From contig NC_015958.1 of assembly GCF_000147695.2 (NCBI RefSeq), forward strand, positions 412,501 to 476,500: 64,000 bases of DNA, read 5' to 3'. A program made the position numbers and the translations under genes. Shown piece after piece: positions 5,406 to 47,251 of this stretch. Position 1 is the stretch's first letter. The number at the start of each line of letters is the position of its first letter. The notes below the pieces were generated by a model, which was not told the DNA's origin, did not search any database, and saw only the letters and a list, made by a program, of their open reading frames with translations. Source of the stretch: Thermoanaerobacter wiegelii Rt8.B1. GTDB lineage: Bacteria; Bacillota; Thermoanaerobacteria; Thermoanaerobacterales; Thermoanaerobacteraceae.

Positions 5406-6851
5406 ATGCAAAACACTAATGCTCTCATAACTGGTGGCGGAAGTGTAAAGGCGAAGTTGCAAAGGCTTGGTGGCTTCTTGGCTGGCATGGTAATACCTAA
5501 TATTGGTGCTTTCATAGCATGGGGACTTATTACTGCTTTCTTTATTCCGACAGGGTGGATTCCAAATGAACATTTGGCTAAACTTGTTGGACCTATGATA
5601 ACTTATCTTTTACCAATTTTAATCGGTTATACAGGTGGAAAACTTGTATACGATGTAAGAGGTGGAGTAGTTGGTGCTATTGCAACAGCAGGTATTATAA
5701 TCGGTTCATCTATACCGATGTTTCTTGGTGCCATGCTGATGGGTCCTTTAGGAGGTTATGTCATTAAAAAATTTGACGAGCTTGTAGAGGGAAAAATCCC
5801 AGCAGGTTTTGAAATGCTTGTCAACAATTTTTCAGCAGGTATTTTAGGTGGTTTATTAGCAATTTTAGCATTTCTTTTCATTGAACCAGTGGTAAATGGA
5901 ATTTCAGTAGGATTAGGTGCAGCAGCTCAATGGGTGACAAACAAAGGCTTATTACCTTTAATAGCGATTTTTATAGAACCGGGTAAAATTTTATTTTTAA
6001 ATAATGCTATTAACCACGGTATATTGGCTCCTCTTGGAGTAGCACAAGTTAAAGAACTTGGAAAGTCAATATTCTTCTTGCTGGAAACAAATCCAGGTCC
6101 GGGATTGGGAGTTTTACTGGCATACTGGTTCTTTGGAAAAGGTGATGCAAAACAATCAGCTCCAGGTGCTATCATAATACACTTCTTTGGCGGAATACAT
6201 GAAATATATTTCCCCTATGTTTTAATGAATCCATCACTGCTTTTGGCAGTTATAGGCGGTGGAATGGCTGCAGACGCGACATTTGTTTTGACAAAAGCAG
6301 GTTTGGTAGCTACGCCTTCACCTGGTAGTATATTTGCAGAGATAGCTATGTCACCAAAAGGCGGATTACTTCCTGTACTTGCAGGTATTACAGTTGGAGC
6401 TGTTGTTTCCTTCCTCATAGCTTCTGTCATTGTAAAAAGGGCAAGCGAAGAAAGCATGAGTGCCGAAAGCATGACTTTTGCTCGCTCGATCGTTAGTGGA
6501 CTTAAAGCGCAAAGCAAAGGACAAAAAGTTGAAGAAATAAAGCCAAATGTACAAAAAATAGATGGCATGCCTAAAATGATTGTTTTTGCTTGCGATGCTG
6601 GTATGGGTTCGTCAGCAATGGGAGAAACTATTTTAAAGAAGAAGTTAAAGGAAGCAGGACTTAATATTACAGTTAAGCATTCAGCTGTAAATCAAATACC
6701 AAAAGAAGCGGATATTGTATTTACCCAAGAAAATCTCGCAGAAAGGGCTTCTCAAGTTGTACCAAATGCGAAAATCGTTACAGTAAAAAACTTTTTAGAT
6801 AATACTGCTTACGATGAATTTGTAAAAAGTCTTGCGGAAAATAATAAATAG
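5406..6851 (+). CDS. mtlA: PTS mannitol transporter subunit IICB
   Basis: 481 residues, ATG behind AAAAGGAGG. Residues about 15-345 are the hydrophobic EIIC channel, with the conserved [13 protein letters not shown] segment near 264 that holds the substrate-binding Glu. Residues about 395-481 form the EIIB domain, with the phosphorylated cysteine in [20 protein letters not shown]. No EIIA domain is attached; it is supplied by mtlF in the same operon, as in many Firmicutes. The protein imports mannitol and phosphorylates it to mannitol-1-phosphate. It is the first gene of mtlA-mtlR-mtlF-mtlD. No convincing promoter was identified in the 149 bases upstream. Confidence 0.95.
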
Positions 6852-6870
6852 ATAAATTATGGTGAAGAGT

Positions 6871-8913
6871 ATGGAAGATCTAACTGTAAGACAAAAATTT
6901 ATATTAAAAACTTTATTGGAGAAAGGTCCTTCTAATATAGAGGACCTTTCCAAGCTTATGGATGTAAGTGGAAGAACTATTATGAGAGAAATAGCCTCTA
7001 TAAACCATAATTTAAAAAAATATAACGCTGTTATTGTAGAGGACAATGGACAAATCATTTTAAAAGGAGAGGAAGAAGCGTTAGATAAAATCCATGCTTC
7101 TTTAGGTGCTATTCCTCTCCAATGGCTCTTAACTCCAGAGCAAAGACAAATATTGATGACAATACAGTTATTACTTTCGGAAGAACCTATAAAAGCAGCT
7201 TATTTTAGTTATCAATTTAATGTTGTGGAGGGAACTATAAGTCTTTACCTTGACAAAATAGAAGAGTGGCTAAAAATGAGAAATTTATCTCTTATTAGAA
7301 GAAGAGGTTATGGGATTAAAGTAGAGGGAAGTGAATTAGATAAAAGAAATGCAATTGTGGAGCTGTTTTATAACTATAAACCCATAGAAGAACTTTTAGC
7401 TTTTGTCTATAATGATGAAAAAGACAAATATGTATACACATTTTTTAGCACAGTTTTTGACAATGAGTTAGTTCAATTAGTGAAAAGAATTGCACAACAA
7501 ATTAAAAATGTTATACATGGTCACTTATCTGACTTAAATTACTTTGGAATGTTTATACATTTACTTGTTTCTATTTACAGAACAAAAATAGACAAGCCAA
7601 TACAGTTTAACGATGAATTTGTAAAGGACATTTTACTTTCTAATGAATTTATTTTCATGAAAGATGTAGAGAAAATATTGAAAGAAAATGAAGTATATTT
7701 GCCAGATGCTGAATTGGCATATTTGGCTCTTCATTTAAGTCCCAAAAAATACGTCTATAAACAAAATAGATTTGAAGAACTTGGCATTTCTTTACAAGAT
7801 TTATCAAAAGAGGTTGTGGAAGAAGTTTCTCGGCTTTTAAATATAAAGATAAATTGCGACGAACAACTTATTGTAGGATTATCCCAGCATTTTGAACCTG
7901 CCCTTTATAGATTGACAATGGGACTTCAGACTACCAATCCATTAGTAGAAGAAATTAAAAATTACTATGGTAATTTGTTTAAAGCAGTAAATAAAGCTTG
8001 CAAGTTAATTTTTTCTAAATATAATCTCATGATACCTGAAGAAGAGATTGGATATATTACAATGCATATTGGAGCTGCAATTGAAAGACAGCAAGCTTTA
8101 TCAAAAAAATTGAGAGTTTTTGTTATATGTCCGAATGGGATTGGCACGGCGAGAATATTATCAGCTAAATTAAAAACTCTTTTTAGAGAAATTGATGCTA
8201 TTGACATTGGGGCAATATGGGAGTATAAGAAAAAGAGTGATGACTATGACTTAATAATTTCTACAGTAAAGCTTGAAGATTTAAAAGATAATGTAATTGT
8301 AGTATCGCCTTTTTTGCCAGAAGAAGATATTAAAAAGGTAGAAGAGTTTATAGAGAAATATGTAGTCAAGAAAGAAAAAGAATTGCCAAGGAATTTGCCG
8401 ATGGTGGAAAGGAGACGAAATTTTGAAATAGCAGATGAAATACTTCGAAATTTGCAATTGAAATACGTGGAAGCAAAAACTATTGAAGATTTAATAAAAT
8501 TCATAGCAAAAGATTTATATGATTTAATGCTTACTGAAGATGCAAAAGAAATAGAGGAGCTAATCTTTAAAAGGGAAGCCATGGGCAATGTTGTCATACC
8601 AAACACCCACATTGCTTTAATTCATACAAGAAGTGACAAAATGGCAATACCTTTTGTCGGTATCTATAAACTAAAAACTCCATTAAAGATGAAAAGTGCT
8701 GGTTTTTCTTATGAAGAAGTAGACACTTTTCTTGTGATGCTGGCAAGGAAAACAGAAAGCAGTGAGATATTAGAGATGTTAGGTAAAATAAGTATTTCAT
8801 TGATTGAGGATAAAGCCTTTAATGAAATATTGAGGTTTGGTGATATCAAAGATATTAGAAATAGCTTAGTTAAAATACTAAATGATACACAGGAGGCTTT
8901 GGAGGATGAATAA
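6871..8913 (+). CDS. mtlR: Mannitol operon transcriptional activator MtlR (PRD/EIIB/EIIA multidomain regulator)
   Basis: About 680 residues. I place the start at ATG 6871, which has GGTGA five bases ahead; an in-frame ATG at 6859 lacks a good site. The order is typical for MtlR: an N-terminal helix-turn-helix (VRQKFILKTLLEKG, then DVSGRTIMREIASI), an Mga-like second DNA-binding region, two PTS regulation domains with histidines in MFIHLLVSIYR, LALHLSP and ITMHIGAAIERQ, an EIIB-like domain with a cysteine in FVICPNGIGTARIL, and a C-terminal EIIA-like domain with VVIPNTHIALIHTR. Phosphorylation of these sites by the PTS sets activity according to mannitol supply. It overlaps mtlF by 8 bases. 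Confidence 0.93.
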   Translation: MEDLTVRQKFILKTLLEKGPSNIEDLSKLMDVSGRTIMREIASINHNLKKYNAVIVEDNGQIILKGEEEALDKIHASLGAIPLQWLLTPEQRQILMTIQLLLSEEPIKAAYFSYQFNVVEGTISLYLDKIEEWLKMRNLSLIRRRGYGIKVEGSELDKRNAIVELFYNYKPIEELLAFVYNDEKDKYVYTFFSTVFDNELVQLVKRIAQQIKNVIHGHLSDLNYFGMFIHLLVSIYRTKIDKPIQFNDEFVKDILLSNEFIFMKDVEKILKENEVYLPDAELAYLALHLSPKKYVYKQNRFEELGISLQDLSKEVVEEVSRLLNIKINCDEQLIVGLSQHFEPALYRLTMGLQTTNPLVEEIKNYYGNLFKAVNKACKLIFSKYNLMIPEEEIGYITMHIGAAIERQQALSKKLRVFVICPNGIGTARILSAKLKTLFREIDAIDIGAIWEYKKKSDDYDLIISTVKLEDLKDNVIVVSPFLPEEDIKKVEEFIEKYVVKKEKELPRNLPMVERRRNFEIADEILRNLQLKYVEAKTIEDLIKFIAKDLYDLMLTEDAKEIEELIFKREAMGNVVIPNTHIALIHTRSDKMAIPFVGIYKLKTPLKMKSAGFSYEEVDTFLVMLARKTESSEILEMLGKISISLIEDKAFNEILRFGDIKDIRNSLVKILNDTQEALEDE

Positions 8914-9346
8914 AGAAATACTAAACGAAAATAATATCGTATTAAATGTGCCGTCAGAATCTAAAATACAAGCTATTGAAAGAGTAGGAAATTTGCTTTT
9001 TAAAAATGGCTATGTTGAAAAAGAATATATAGAAGGTATGAAGAAAAGAGAAGAAGATGTAACAACTTATATAGGTAATGGTATTGCTATTCCTCACGGT
9101 GTTTCTGAGTATGTAAAATATATAAAAAAATCTGGAATAGTTATAGCGCAATATCCTAAAGGAGTAGATTTTGGAGATGGAAATATTGCCTATATTGTCA
9201 TAGGAATTGCAGGCAAGGGAGATGAACATTTAGAGATATTATCAAAAATAGCTCTTACCTGCCAGTATGAAGAAAATGTCGAGAAATTGAAAAAGGCAAG
9301 GACAAAACAAGAAATAATAGAAATACTTCAAAAAGGTGATGAATAA
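8906..9346 (+). CDS. mtlF: PTS mannitol transporter subunit IIA
   Basis: 146 residues. The start at ATG 8906 is fixed by a double Shine-Dalgarno stretch (AGGAGG and GGAGG) just before it; the upstream frame extension has no site. The EIIA(Mtl) fold is indicated by [18 protein letters not shown], containing the phosphorylatable histidine, and by [17 protein letters not shown]. It passes phosphate from HPr to the EIIB cysteine of MtlA. It overlaps the end of mtlR and is followed immediately by mtlD, so translation is probably coupled. Confidence 0.95.
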
Positions 9347-9347
9347 T

Positions 9348-10514
9348 ATGTTAAAAGCGGTTCATTTTGGAGCAGGGAATATAGGCAGAGGATTTATAGG
9401 ATATTTGTTGTATAAGTCTGGATATGAAATAACTTTTGTTGATATATCAAAAGAATTAGTAGAAAGCATAAATAATTATAAAAGATATAATGTGATTATT
9501 TTAAAAGATAATGTGGAAAAGGAAGAAGTAAAAAATATCAAAGCTATTCATATAGAAGATGAAGAAAATCTATCCAAGGCTATTGTAGATGCAGATATAA
9601 TTACGACTTCAGTAGGAGCTAATAATCTTAAGAGCATAGGGAAAAAGTTGATAAATTATTTAAAGATAAGAAAAGCTAACATTGATAAACCTTTGAATAT
9701 AATGGCATGTGAAAATGCACTGTTTGCAACAAATATACTAAAAAATAGTATATTGGAAAAAGGGGATAAAGATTTTATTGATTACGTAAATCAAAAAATT
9801 GGTTTTCCTAATACGGCTGTGGACAGGATAGTACCGAATGTAGATATAAAGAAAGAACTGCCAATAGATGTAGCTGTAGAAGACTTTTATGAATGGGATA
9901 TTGAGAAAAAAGCAATTATTGGGGATGTAAATATCAAAGGGGCGGAGCTGGTTGATGACCTTGAGCCATATATAGAAAGAAAATTATTTTTATTAAATGG
10001 TGCACATGCTACCACTGCATATTTAGGATATTTAAAAGGATATAAATATATACATGAAGCGATTGAGGACGATTTTATAAGAAATATAGTGTCTGGAATG
10101 CAAGAAGAAGCTTCTCTTGCGCTTTCTAGAAAGCACAATATAAAAAAAGATGATTTAGAGAGGTATGCAAGTAAGGTAATAAAAAGGTTTAAAAGCCCCT
10201 ATTTGAAAGACGAAGTTGTAAGAGTAGGAAGGGAACCTACAAGAAAATTGGCGGGAAATGACCGGTTAATGATGCCTGCTAAGCTTTGCTATGAAATTGG
10301 AGTTATGCCCCAATTTATACTATACGGTATAGCTGCAGGGTTTTTGTTTAATTATAAGGAAGACCCTAAAGCTTGTGAAATTCAAGATGACATTAGAAAT
10401 CTTGGGTTAGAAAAAACAATAAGCAAAGTTACAGGTTTAGAAGAAAATAGTGACTTATTGCAGGAAATTGTAAAAAAATATAAAGAATTGAAAGAAGCTT
10501 TTGGAAAAAGATGA
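9348..10514 (+). CDS. mtlD: Mannitol-1-phosphate 5-dehydrogenase
   Basis: 388 residues from ATG 9348 (Shine-Dalgarno AAAGGTG); in-frame GTG 9336 and ATG 9339 overlap mtlF and fit worse. An N-terminal Rossmann motif [13 protein letters not shown] binds NAD+. The central CENALFATN and the catalytic region [20 protein letters not shown] match the family. It oxidises mannitol-1-phosphate to fructose-6-phosphate, feeding glycolysis. It is the last gene of the mannitol operon, closed by a terminator overlapping its stop codon. Confidence 0.96.
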
Positions 10515-10551: not shown

Positions 10552-10735
10552 GATGAAAGCTTATTGTAATAAAGTTAAAAATGTCTACAATATTAAGTAA
10601 ACGTATAAAAGAAAAAGCAAATGGGAGTAAAATTGGAAATAAACATGTGATATTGCCCTAAATCGCTGTTGAAGGTCAAAAAAGTCTTTTATATAATTAT
10701 ATTAAGACTTGTCTGACATCTGATGTGTGTTGTAA

Positions 10736-10789
10736 TTTACACAAAATTAATAATAGTTTAACTTCTATTTAACACTCCGCTGGTATACT
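10736..10789 (+). promoter_or_regulatory. PhoP-type box (four 11-base direct repeats) and -10 element
   Basis: Four hexamers TTTACA, TTAATA, TTAACT and TTAACA begin at 10736, 10747, 10758 and 10769, each separated by exactly five bases. This matches the Firmicute PhoP binding pattern (TTAACA-like direct repeats with 11-base period). A TATACT -10 hexamer follows at 10784-10789, so the last repeats overlap where the -35 would be, as in PhoP-activated promoters. The gene controlled is a secreted 5'-nucleotidase, a classic phosphate-scavenging function. The rest of 10552-10887 shows nothing else clear. Regulation is inferred. Confidence 0.7.
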
Positions 10790-10887
10790 TAAAATGTCTA
10801 AAATTTTTCCTGTAATTTTTATGGAGGTGGTTGTTGAAAATCTATTTGTTTTCTAAGAACAAAAATCCTAGTAAAAGGAGGATGTAA

Positions 10888-13800
10888 ATGTTTAGGTCAA
10901 GGTCAAGGATACTTGCAATATTTGTTGCAGCAATAATGGTATTTAGTATGTTTTTCTCTGCGGTACCGCAGATAGTCTTTGCTGCAACGTCAAAAACATT
11001 TGACTTTATAGAAGTCACCGATTTTCACGGTTATTTACAAAACGATGGTAAATTAAGTGATGGGACAATTTATAAGCAGCAAATAGCAGGTGTTTTGGCA
11101 AAACAAATTAAAGACATAAAAGCTCAAAATCCTGACAGAACTGTAATTTTATCTGGCGGAGATATGTTCCAAGGAACGCCGCTTTCCAACGTCTTAAAAG
11201 GACAGCCAGTTATTGACATGATGAAAAACATTGGCTTTGACGCAATAACTCTTGGGAATCACGAATATGACTGGGGTATTAATTCAGTAATTGATACGCA
11301 AAATGCTACACTTAAAGATTCAGCAATTCCCGTTCTTGCAGCAAATGTGTATGATAAAACAACTGGGAAGCCTGTGAGTTATGTAAAGCCCTATGTAATT
11401 ATTGAAAGAGATGGAGTAAAAATCGGCATAATTGGCATCGTAGACAATAAAGAATTCCCAAATATAATAATGCCTGCATATATACAAAATGTTGAATTTA
11501 AAGATCCTGTTCCAATTGTAAATGACTTAGCGCAGCAGTTAAGACAACAAGGTGTGCAAATTGTTGTTGTACTGGCACATATGGGTGCATATCAAGATAA
11601 GTCAGGTAATGCAACAGGCAATCTTATAGACTTTGCAAAACAAGTTAAAGGTGTAGATGCTATATTTGGTGGACATACACATTCAATTGTCACTACAAGA
11701 GTAAATGGAATTCCTGTAGGGGTTGCTTACTATTATGGCAGAGGATTCATCGATTTAAAGATAACATTAAATGATGATGGCACAGTTACAACAGGCGATA
11801 TGCAATACATTGATATTACAGGTTTGTATTCTACACAAAATCCTGTAGTGGATCCTGAAGTACAAGCCATTGTCGATAAAGCTGTTCAAGATGTAGGACC
11901 AATATTTAACGAAGTGATAGGTCAAGCTGCAATAGATTTGACAAGGACTCAAAGTGCTGAGCCTTATGGAGATTCTCTCTTAGGCAATTGGGCAGCACAA
12001 GTGACAAAGGATGCAGTTGGAGCAGATTTTGGATTTGCCAATAATGGTGGGCTTAGGATAGATATTCCAAAAGGCGATATAACTGTTGGAATGATGTATC
12101 AATTGATGCCTTTTGACAACACAATAGTTACAATGAAAATGACAGGGGCGCAAGTAAAAACTATACTTGAACAGGCTGTACAAGATGGTGGCAAGGGTAT
12201 ACAGGTTGCGGGACTTACTTTCAAGTATGATCCATCTAAGCCTTCAATGCAAAGAGTATTTGATATGAGAAAGTCCGACGGAACGCCAATACTCATGGAT
12301 AAAACTTATCTTGTTGCGACAAACAACTTTATGGGCACTGGCGGAGATGGCTTTAAAGGTTTTACAGACCCTGATGTTGCAAAAACTTATGTTGATACAT
12401 ATAAGCTTGTAAGAGATGCATTCATAGATGCAGTTAAAGCCCAAAAGACAGTTACTTCGAAAATAGATAATAGAATTGTACCAGCTAAAATGAGCGATGC
12501 GACAATAACAGTAGTTGCTACGTCAGATATACATGGCAATATATACCCATGGGACTACAATACTGCAAAATCAGCTAACCAAGGTCTTGCAAAGGTATCT
12601 ACTTATGTAAAACAGGTAAGAGCGCAATATCCTTATGTGGTATTAGTAGACAATGGAGACACAATACAAGGAACACCACTTTCTTACTATTATGACAAGA
12701 TAGATACCACTACAGAATATCCATTAGCAAAAGTAATGGGAGCAATGAAATATGACACCTGGACATTGGGCAACCATGAATACAATTATGGGCTTGACGT
12801 TTTAAACAGGATTATAAATGATATGAGAAATGAAGGCATACATGTACTTTCAGCAAATACTTACAAAGGTGACGGAACAAACTTTGTTGACCCTTACTAT
12901 ATTAAGACATTTGATACGCCACAAGGACCTGTAAAAGTAGGTATATTAGGCCTTACGACTAAAACTATACCATCATGGGAAGACAAAGACCACTATGCAG
13001 GATTACACTTCAATGACCTTGTAGAGGAAGCAAATAAGTGGGTACCCAAATTAAGAGAAGCAGGAGCAGATATAATAATTGCTACAATTCACTCTGGTGA
13101 AGAATCACCGACAGATGTAATACCTGAAAATCAAGTTAAAGCCGTTGCAACTCAAGTAAATGGTATTGATGCAATAGTTGCAGGACATACACATGCTATT
13201 ATATCACAGCACACATATAAGAACCCGGCAGGCGAAACAGTTATAGTGACAGAACCAGGTAAATGGGGACAATATGTATCACAGATAAACTTTAATATAA
13301 GCAAAAATGCTGATGGAAAATGGGTAATAGATAGCAAATGGAGTGCAACTATAAAAATGGATGATTCTGTACAAGCAGATTCAGATATTTTAAACCTTGC
13401 ACAACCATATCAAGATGCAACACTTAAATATATAGGAACAAAAATCGGTGTTGCAACAGGTGACTTCTTAGGTACTGAACAGACAGTAAAAGAGACAGCT
13501 ATAATGGACCTCATCAATAAAGTTCAAAAATATTATGCAAAAACTGATCTATCAATTGCTGCACCACTTAGCAGTTCAGCAAAGATATTGAAAGGCGATA
13601 TAACAATTCAAGACATTATGGGTGTATATGTATATGAAAATTACTTGTATGGAATAAAGATGACTGGGAAACAGTTAAAAGACTGGTTGGAATGGTCAGC
13701 AAGGTATTACAAACAAGTCTCCTCGCCAAATGATCCTATAACAAAAGATCCTACTTTGAATATACCTGATTACAATCTTGATCAATTGTACGGTGCAAGC

Positions 13801-14568
13801 TATGTAATAGATTTAACACAACCAGCAGGACATAGGATTAAAAACCTTAAAGTAAATGGTAAACTTGTCAAAGACGATGATGTATTCACAGTAGCAATAA
13901 ATAACTACAGGTTCAATGGTGGCGGCGGATTTATGCAAGCTGCTGGAATAACAAATCCAGAAATTGTATTTGATTCCGCAAAAGCTTATGGCGACGACGG
14001 ACAGGTAAGGAATTTGATGATCAGATATATTCAAGAGCATGGTACAATTACACCAACCGTCGAGAATTACTGGTATGTATCAACTACTCCTGTGGCAGAA
14101 GAAGCACCATCACCAGTAACACAACCAACACCTGCTACAACTCCACAACCACAACCTGCACCACAACCTGTATACAACTATGGCATTGTAACTGCATCAG
14201 CGCTTAATGTGAGGGCAGGTGCAAGCACTTCAAGCAAAATTATAGGAGTACTTCCTGCCGGAAAAGTTGTGACATTGCTTGAAGAAGTCAACGGATGGTA
14301 CAAGATTGACTACAATGGCAAGACAGGATACATCTATGGTAAATACGTTGCTGCAACGCCCAATCCGTCAAATGTAACTGTTTTGAAAGCTGTAAAAGTC
14401 ACTGCTAAGAGCGGGTTAAATGTAAGAGTAGGGAATTCTATAAATGCAAAGAAGATAGGAGCAGTACCATATGGTACAGAACTAAAAGTAGTTGGAGAAT
14501 ATAATGGATGGTATCAGATACAGTATAATGGCGGATTTGGATATGTATACGCAAAATATACAAAATAA
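10888..14568 (+). CDS. Secreted bifunctional 5'-nucleotidase / 2',3'-cyclic nucleotide phosphodiesterase, two catalytic modules plus two SH3b domains
   Basis: 1226 residues with AAAGGAGG ahead of the ATG. A signal peptide covers about residues 1-32. Module 1 (about 36-535) has a metallophosphoesterase domain with VTDFHGYL, LSGGDMFQG, LGNHEYDWG and FGGHTHS, then a 5'-nucleotidase C-terminal domain with NNGGLRIDIPKGDI. Module 2 (about 545-1095) repeats the plan: SDIHGNIYPWDY, VDNGDTIQGTPL, LGNHEYNYG, VAGHTHAI, then its own C-terminal domain with INNYRFNGGGGF. A Pro/Gln/Thr linker leads to two SH3b repeats (ALNVRAGASTSSKIIG and GLNVRVGNSINAKKIG), which likely bind the cell wall; no LPXTG is present. 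It should release phosphate and nucleosides from extracellular nucleotides. Confidence 0.93.
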   Translation: MFRSRSRILAIFVAAIMVFSMFFSAVPQIVFAATSKTFDFIEVTDFHGYLQNDGKLSDGTIYKQQIAGVLAKQIKDIKAQNPDRTVILSGGDMFQGTPLSNVLKGQPVIDMMKNIGFDAITLGNHEYDWGINSVIDTQNATLKDSAIPVLAANVYDKTTGKPVSYVKPYVIIERDGVKIGIIGIVDNKEFPNIIMPAYIQNVEFKDPVPIVNDLAQQLRQQGVQIVVVLAHMGAYQDKSGNATGNLIDFAKQVKGVDAIFGGHTHSIVTTRVNGIPVGVAYYYGRGFIDLKITLNDDGTVTTGDMQYIDITGLYSTQNPVVDPEVQAIVDKAVQDVGPIFNEVIGQAAIDLTRTQSAEPYGDSLLGNWAAQVTKDAVGADFGFANNGGLRIDIPKGDITVGMMYQLMPFDNTIVTMKMTGAQVKTILEQAVQDGGKGIQVAGLTFKYDPSKPSMQRVFDMRKSDGTPILMDKTYLVATNNFMGTGGDGFKGFTDPDVAKTYVDTYKLVRDAFIDAVKAQKTVTSKIDNRIVPAKMSDATITVVATSDIHGNIYPWDYNTAKSANQGLAKVSTYVKQVRAQYPYVVLVDNGDTIQGTPLSYYYDKIDTTTEYPLAKVMGAMKYDTWTLGNHEYNYGLDVLNRIINDMRNEGIHVLSANTYKGDGTNFVDPYYIKTFDTPQGPVKVGILGLTTKTIPSWEDKDHYAGLHFNDLVEEANKWVPKLREAGADIIIATIHSGEESPTDVIPENQVKAVATQVNGIDAIVAGHTHAIISQHTYKNPAGETVIVTEPGKWGQYVSQINFNISKNADGKWVIDSKWSATIKMDDSVQADSDILNLAQPYQDATLKYIGTKIGVATGDFLGTEQTVKETAIMDLINKVQKYYAKTDLSIAAPLSSSAKILKGDITIQDIMGVYVYENYLYGIKMTGKQLKDWLEWSARYYKQVSSPNDPITKDPTLNIPDYNLDQLYGASYVIDLTQPAGHRIKNLKVNGKLVKDDDVFTVAINNYRFNGGGGFMQAAGITNPEIVFDSAKAYGDDGQVRNLMIRYIQEHGTITPTVENYWYVSTTPVAEEAPSPVTQPTPATTPQPQPAPQPVYNYGIVTASALNVRAGASTSSKIIGVLPAGKVVTLLEEVNGWYKIDYNGKTGYIYGKYVAATPNPSNVTVLKAVKVTAKSGLNVRVGNSINAKKIGAVPYGTELKVVGEYNGWYQIQYNGGFGYVYAKYTK

Positions 14569-46997: not shown

Positions 46998-47190
46998 ATA
47001 GGTGTGCAAGTGAATATAAAAAATCTTATGGTCTTGAGAAGTTAAAAGGGAAAGCGGTGAAAATCCGCTGCAGCCCCCGCTACTGTGAGCGAGGATGAAG
47101 CCCTAATAACGCCACTGCCTGGCACTCAAGAGAGGTACCGGGTGGGAAGGCAGGGTGGAAGATGAATCGCGAGCCAGGAGACCTGCCATA
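46998..47190 (+). ncRNA. Cobalamin (AdoCbl) riboswitch aptamer
   Basis: The RNA carries the strongly conserved core GCAGCCCCCGCTACTGT (47070-47086), preceded by GGGAAAGCGGTGAAAATCCGC, and the closing B12 box GAGCCAGGAGACCTGCC (47171-47187). Together these define the class I cobalamin riboswitch. It is followed by an intrinsic terminator and then btuF, so high cobalamin should switch expression off. Confidence 0.96.
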
Positions 47191-47251
47191 AGATTTCGGA
47201 AGTTCGCCTTCGGAGGGAAGGTGGAATGGAATTTTTATGCTTAATTTTGGT

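Follow-up and report, generated by a model that had tools for sequence, protein, structure and literature searches.

A predicted PhoP box and a probable NupR-like operator before a secreted nucleotidase gene in Thermoanaerobacter wiegelii

In Bacillus subtilis the PhoP box consists of TT(A/C/T)A(C/T)A direct repeats with a period of 11 bases, located just upstream of a -10 element and accompanied by no proper -35, and PhoP-activated promoters such as those of pstS and phoA carry repeats of the TTWACA type in this position. The product of B. subtilis yfkN, a secreted nucleotide phosphoesterase, is reported to be induced by phosphate starvation (PMC4744853, citing Allenby et al. 2005). Direct repeats of 11 nucleotides have been described in a review, according to which phosphate and carbon act on ugp of Escherichia coli through separate promoters placed in tandem: the downstream promoter has PHO boxes, and a carbon-related regulator, cAMP-CRP, governs the one upstream (PMC4415409). 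NupR of Bacillus thuringiensis, a nucleoside permease regulator of the GntR/HutC type, is encoded with a nucleoside ABC transporter and has 13 published sites (PMC9430930).

Neither PhoP boxes nor enzymes of the YfkN type under phosphate control are new, and the locus analyzed here represents another such case with what appears to be a two-input layout. It lies in a window of 64,000 nucleotides, i.e., the whole stretch of DNA that was analyzed, from Thermoanaerobacter wiegelii Rt8.B1 (Table 1). The 54-base region that extends from the first repeat to the -10 element is likely the PhoP-dependent, proximal promoter (P2) of a nucleotidase gene, and its repeats are well supported as a PhoP box. 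As in the B. subtilis Pho system, 11-base TTWACA-type repeats are found by a -10 without a good -35 and a box precedes pstS beside phoPR; in contrast to B. subtilis, the organism is a thermophilic anaerobe, the frame of its phoR is broken and the target gene has a second, probably nucleoside-controlled, promoter (P1). In the open-access literature searched, nothing was found on PhoP boxes in Thermoanaerobacter, among the matches listed, or on any connection between NupR and this genus.

Table 1. Features of the nucleotidase locus, in positions of the window
Feature	Position	Strand	Basis or remark
Predicted sigma-A promoter P1: TTGAAG, 17 bases, TATAAT	10669-10697	+	sequence
Probable NupR-like (GntR/HutC) operator TTGTCTGACATCTGATGT, palindromic core TGTC-T-GACA	10709-10726	+	just downstream of the P1 -10
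PhoP box (well supported), four repeats, 11-base period	10736-10774	+	sequence, genome searches, matrix, orthologues
Repeat TTTACA	10736-10741	+	
Repeat TTAATA	10747-10752	+	
Repeat TTAACT	10758-10763	+	
Repeat TTAACA	10769-10774	+	
P2 -10 element TATACT	10784-10789	+	nine bases after the last repeat of the box
Secreted multifunctional nucleotidase gene, ATG at 10888	10888-14568	+	signal peptide recognized by eye; Metallophos + 5_nucleotid_C module and SH3_3 domain, each present twice

The nucleotidase gene and the repeats before it

The gene encodes a product of 1226 residues whose best NCBIfam model is the 2',3'-cyclic-nucleotide 2'-phosphodiesterase/3'-nucleotidase/5'-nucleotidase subfamily, with a score of 683 that is below the curated cut-off of 1646. 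Assignment to the YfkN-like enzymes is based on the two modules of metallophosphatase and 5'-nucleotidase C-terminal domains that were found and on secretion, which was judged by eye. It resembles YfkN as a secreted nucleotidase of the same kind, under what is predicted to be the same control (PMC4744853), and differs from it in the SH3 domains at its C-terminus.

Other elements were observed around the gene. A second Shine-Dalgarno-like sequence, GGAGGTGG, is located about 60 bases before the start (window 10820-10887), and a 17-codon frame that starts with TTG at 10834 would run to an ATGTAA immediately preceding the ATG of the nucleotidase. Of 10 aligned upstream regions, 9 retain GGAGGTG; the short frame, as judged by eye, is not kept in G007. 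The genes situated just upstream (window 5406-10514) look by eye like an operon for a mannitol PTS and mannitol-1-phosphate dehydrogenase. Elsewhere in the window (47012-47204) a cobalamin riboswitch was detected with 132.3 bits.

The earlier note on this DNA described four hexamers exactly 11 bases apart, and direct reading of the sequence bears this out. The -10 element that it reported, TATACT, is also present; its distance from the box was given as ten bases and is one less, nine, when intervening bases are counted. No proper -35 accompanies P2, since the hexamers at a spacing of 16-18 bases from TATACT fit TTGACA at no more than 2 of 6 positions. When membership in the TT(A/C/T)A(C/T)A class was examined, three of the four repeats fitted in register and TTAACT missed the last base, while two of them (TTAATA and TTAACT) depart from TTWACA.

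A search of the window for four TTWACA repeats with period 11 and at most three mismatches produced one match vs 0.01 expected, and the same search found a match in 1 of 100 shuffled sequences. Scored with a matrix made from boxes of other genera, the nucleotidase site was at the top of 127,924 window positions, with 18.46 vs 6.18 for the next one, and this value was reached in none of 200 first-order Markov windows; likewise, none of 500 simulated sequences equaled the box score of the upstream region itself. The matrix was built from 13 loci, representing 12 distinct boxes (11 at pst and one, L069, at an MFS transporter gene), which we chose among the 29 best-match loci of the search in relatives (L069-L097), excluding eight of the same genus (L088-L095) and eight that are not at pst (L071, L072, L074, L075, L077, L078, L080, and L084).

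Boxes at the pst genes and in related genomes

When the four-repeat pattern was searched in the genome (2,785,056 bases, one contig) with at most three mismatches, three matches were obtained and none with the reversed pattern used as control; the box is specific at the genome-wide level. The earlier note had named the lack of such a motif at other phosphate genes as grounds for rejecting its reading; the outcome supports it, as the two additional matches precede pstS and pstC, directly downstream of phoP-phoR in a cluster with the order phoP, phoR, pstS, pstC, pstA, pstB, phoU, so that the box is linked to pst and to phoP. In this cluster phoP, phoR and pstS were compared with NCBIfam and the remaining genes were named by eye from their translations. 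The pstS box, which overlaps the end of phoR, reads TTAACA, TTAACA, TTAATA, TTTACA, nine bases and TACAAT, and its geometry is that of the nucleotidase box, with the same gap between the last repeat and the -10; the third box of the genome is situated between pstS and pstC. A three-repeat pattern with at most two mismatches gave 17 matches in this genome vs 9 in the control, indicating that the three-repeat form is of low specificity.

A separate observation concerns the intergenic region between a glyA-like and a dipeptidase-like gene (L009:7960-8200, minus strand; G000:C1 about 2050959-2051199), in which three PhoP-like repeats and two TATAAT sites occur together with stretches rich in C (ACTCCCCCTTTAACA) and a hairpin resembling a terminator. 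All 13 genomes of the family that were searched gave a match to this region, with its 3' part matching best, and not all of them retain the repeats; no Rfam match reached the gathering score; it is possible that it encodes a small RNA, perhaps linked to phosphate.

The gene assigned as phoP is intact and adjoins pst, and its product contains receiver and Trans_reg_C domains; in a comparison with the PDB its best relative was RegX3, the receiver of B. subtilis PhoP (1mvo) being lower, a ranking that does not identify it as PhoP or as YycF. The frame of phoR breaks early, at a T-run in the first membrane segment (L008:12449-12731, minus strand; G000:C1 about 1590448-1590730), a feature absent from the earlier note. 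As phoR is open in all eight relatives of the same genus examined (G001-G008), the break may be either a real frameshift, in which case the response of this strain could be abnormal, or an assembly error. This raises the practical question of whether the sequenced strain still senses phosphate.

In 41 genomes (this one and 40 relatives) the search for four TTWACA repeats gave 242 matches vs 35 with the reversed control, and 118 vs 18 in the 19 genomes of its own family. Annotation by eye of the 29 best-match loci revealed that 20 precede pstS or pstC and six a methyltransferase-like gene, while the remaining three are followed by an MFS transporter gene, by a short ORF resembling a lipoprotein and by one resembling a permease. 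The boxes before the methyltransferase-like gene (L072, L074, L075, L077, L078, and L084) have four repeats and come from six genomes that belong to a different family within the class; this gene, named by eye as SAM-dependent, is a possible Pho target.

The N-terminal 337 residues of the nucleotidase were matched in 27 of the 41 genomes. The box was scored in 24 of the 30 orthologue loci (L027-L056, leaving out L050-L053, L055, and L056), and in 19 of these upstream regions it was found in register with a score of at least 22 of 24, TTWAYA being counted. A one-base shift of the last repeat lowers the score of G002 to 21; taking one best orthologue per genome, the box is present at 21 or more in 18 of the 19 family genomes. 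The misses among the 24 regions include those of G019 and G021, where the match lies within a longer gene; the loci with this feature, L048 and L049, score 14. An indel breaks the register of the box in G015, where 102 of 500 simulated sequences score as well, no in-register box precedes the paralogue G014b, and reading L065-L068 by eye revealed no box. In another family of the class (f4, 13 genomes) strong nucleotidase orthologues occur only in G028 and G030, both with the box. The best-scoring -10 lies at a gap of nine bases from the box in 14 of the 24 upstream regions, and the best one near the box in G010, G028, and G030 matches just 4 of 6 positions. Within the genus the whole upstream region can be aligned, so conservation alone is weak there; conversely, six genomes of the Thermoanaerobacterium type keep the period and the nine-base gap in surroundings that have diverged, which argues for selection on the box itself.

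Altogether, the sites at pst, the rank of the nucleotidase site under the matrix and the conservation in orthologues support the reading of the earlier note, in which the repeats are a PhoP box. The repeats could alternatively be bound by another regulator of the OmpR family, above all one similar to WalR/YycF, and the gene would then follow the state of the cell wall. WalR recognizes the pattern TGTWAH-N5-TGTWAH, to which the complement of the repeats (TGTTAA-N5-AGTTAA-N5-TATTAA-N5-TGTAAA) comes close, although by eye only the outer two repeats fit and each of the inner two misses one base. Consistent with such a factor, the genome has eight Trans_reg_C matches, one of which (L136) scores 322.8 vs a cut-off of 340 for the YycF model, the nucleotidase itself ends in SH3 domains, and the product of phoP scores slightly better with the YycF model (273 bits) than with that of PhoB (263 bits), both values being under the cut-off. 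However, the other two boxes of the genome are at pst directly downstream of phoPR, and 20 of the 29 annotated best matches in relatives are at pst; because of the former we rank this explanation low and regard it as unlikely.

It is still more improbable that the repeats constitute an A+T-rich, helically phased element, UP-like or of curved DNA, by which the basal level of transcription is increased and to which no activator of its own belongs. The region is indeed rich in A+T and the repeats recur at close to one turn of the helix, but simulations with the same dinucleotide make-up did not reproduce the box in any of the 200 windows or of the 500 versions of the region, and the three matches of the genome sit at the nucleotidase and pst. 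The least credible proposal, in our judgment, is that the box is due to chance or to mere shared ancestry of close relatives, as might be argued from the alignable region within the genus, since the period is retained, at another position and in another sequence, by genomes of the Thermoanaerobacterium type, by G010 and by two genomes from outside the family. Both the UP-element and the chance readings were rejected on the basis of the shuffles, the simulated sequences and the matrix from other genera. The PhoP reading is thus retained, and very likely PhoP binds at P2 and activates it under phosphate starvation.

The predicted upstream promoter and its putative operator

The earlier note did not describe P1 or the probable operator that follows it. 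The TATAAT of P1 is identical in ten aligned upstream regions, whereas conservation of its -35 part is incomplete (G017 is one example). Before the nucleotidase, the first 16 bases of the operator are identical in 17 of the 19 family genomes, with one mismatch in G014, and G010 is the sole one of the 19 in which this 16-mer is absent; operator and box are both conserved elements of this region. The number of bases separating them is 11 in nine genomes of the genus, 12 in G017, 9 in G014 and between 32 and 34 in six further genomes of the family (it was not measurable in G015), and this variability suggests that they are independent modules.

Searches with the 16-mer at up to two mismatches retrieved 2 sites in this genome vs 6 in the reversed control, and 61 vs 48 in the family, and those with the 18-mer at up to three mismatches retrieved 2 vs 3 in this genome. 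With a matrix derived from the 13 B. thuringiensis NupR sites the operator was the top match of the window (14.62), a score equaled in 48 of 200 simulated windows; the same matrix placed the nup site described below first in its locus, L130 (15.57). As the counts are below the control in this genome and just above it in the family, and the matrix score by itself is not significant, the case for the operator rests on exact conservation and position.

A close copy of the operator, TTGTCTGACATCTAAC, is present in 17 of the 19 family genomes. In T. wiegelii it follows the TATAAT of a gene for a Bmp-family lipoprotein, the first of a nucleoside-uptake (nup) run that comprises this lipoprotein, an ABC ATPase, two permeases and a GntR-UTRA regulator (L130:14498-15229), followed by cdd-, deoB-, and pdp-like genes of nucleoside catabolism; Bmp and GntR/UTRA were recognized by domain search and the others were named by eye. 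The position before bmp was seen in this genome and in G009, where the run starts in the same way and a GntR-like gene comes after the permeases, and hence the operator core follows the -10 of the nup operon at an equal place in two genera. The resemblance to the B. thuringiensis system includes the presence of a GntR/HutC regulator gene alongside those of a nucleoside ABC transporter and a site core like GTCWGACRTCT, and the sites published there include close matches of the operator such as GGTCAGACATCTTAC (PMC9430930). The regulator gene is the first one in B. thuringiensis and comes after the permeases here, and the list of 13 sites contains no nucleotidase, a word also absent from the main text of that article as searched (PMC9430930).

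In G005 an exact copy of the operator (L132:665-682) was observed within a promoter resembling P1. Some 745 bases farther downstream begins a gene (L132:1427-4051) whose secreted product combines a tyrosine-phosphatase-like domain with SAM_HAT_C and SH3 domains.

Based on this evidence, the factor acting at the upstream operator is probably NupR. The element could instead be a site for another factor or a part of the promoter or leader, for which the few sites per genome and counts that scarcely exceed the control at two mismatches or fewer may be adduced; this is less likely, given that two genera have the same core behind the -10 of their nup operon and that G004 has an exact 18-base copy about 480 bases upstream of, and on the same strand as, the gene of a DeoD-type purine-nucleoside phosphorylase.

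A proposed promoter pair for phosphate and nucleosides

With NupR at P1 and PhoP at P2, a mechanism can be proposed in which, upon exhaustion of phosphate, the phosphorylated form of PhoP, whose gene adjoins pst, would bind the four head-to-tail repeats as stacked dimers, sit over the -35 position and recruit RNA polymerase to TATACT, and the nucleotidase would then free phosphate from nucleotides outside the cell. At P1, about 90 bases upstream of P2, the GntR/HutC regulator of the nucleoside-uptake operon would repress transcription until nucleosides are present, its predicted site being just downstream of the P1 start. This explanation taken as a whole, a PhoP-dependent P2 of a YfkN-like nucleotidase plus a P1 repressed by a NupR-like protein, is considered likely. 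The tandem logic itself, in which P1 is derepressed by nucleosides and P2 responds to phosphate starvation, is suggested by the layout of the sites, and we lean slightly toward it; with P1 under nucleoside control and P2 under phosphate control, the nucleotidase would answer to either phosphate hunger or nucleoside supply. The arrangement recalls E. coli ugp, likewise with tandem promoters of which the downstream one has PHO boxes and the upstream one is under a carbon-related regulator, cAMP-CRP in that case vs probable repression of the GntR/HutC type here (PMC4415409). The odds seem evenly balanced on the broader proposal that a two-input OR gate has been kept across Thermoanaerobacter, Caldanaerobacter, and Thermoanaerobacterium, in which P1 would serve carbon/nucleoside salvage and P2 phosphate, with modules that evolve independently.

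In these results pst and the secreted nucleotidase emerge as a well-supported core of the Pho regulon in Thermoanaerobacter and related genomes, which is useful for the design of growth media and for annotation. The putative promoter pair would make a single gene the meeting point of nucleoside salvage and the response to phosphate starvation, offering a simple and testable case of one enzyme that may attend to two needs.
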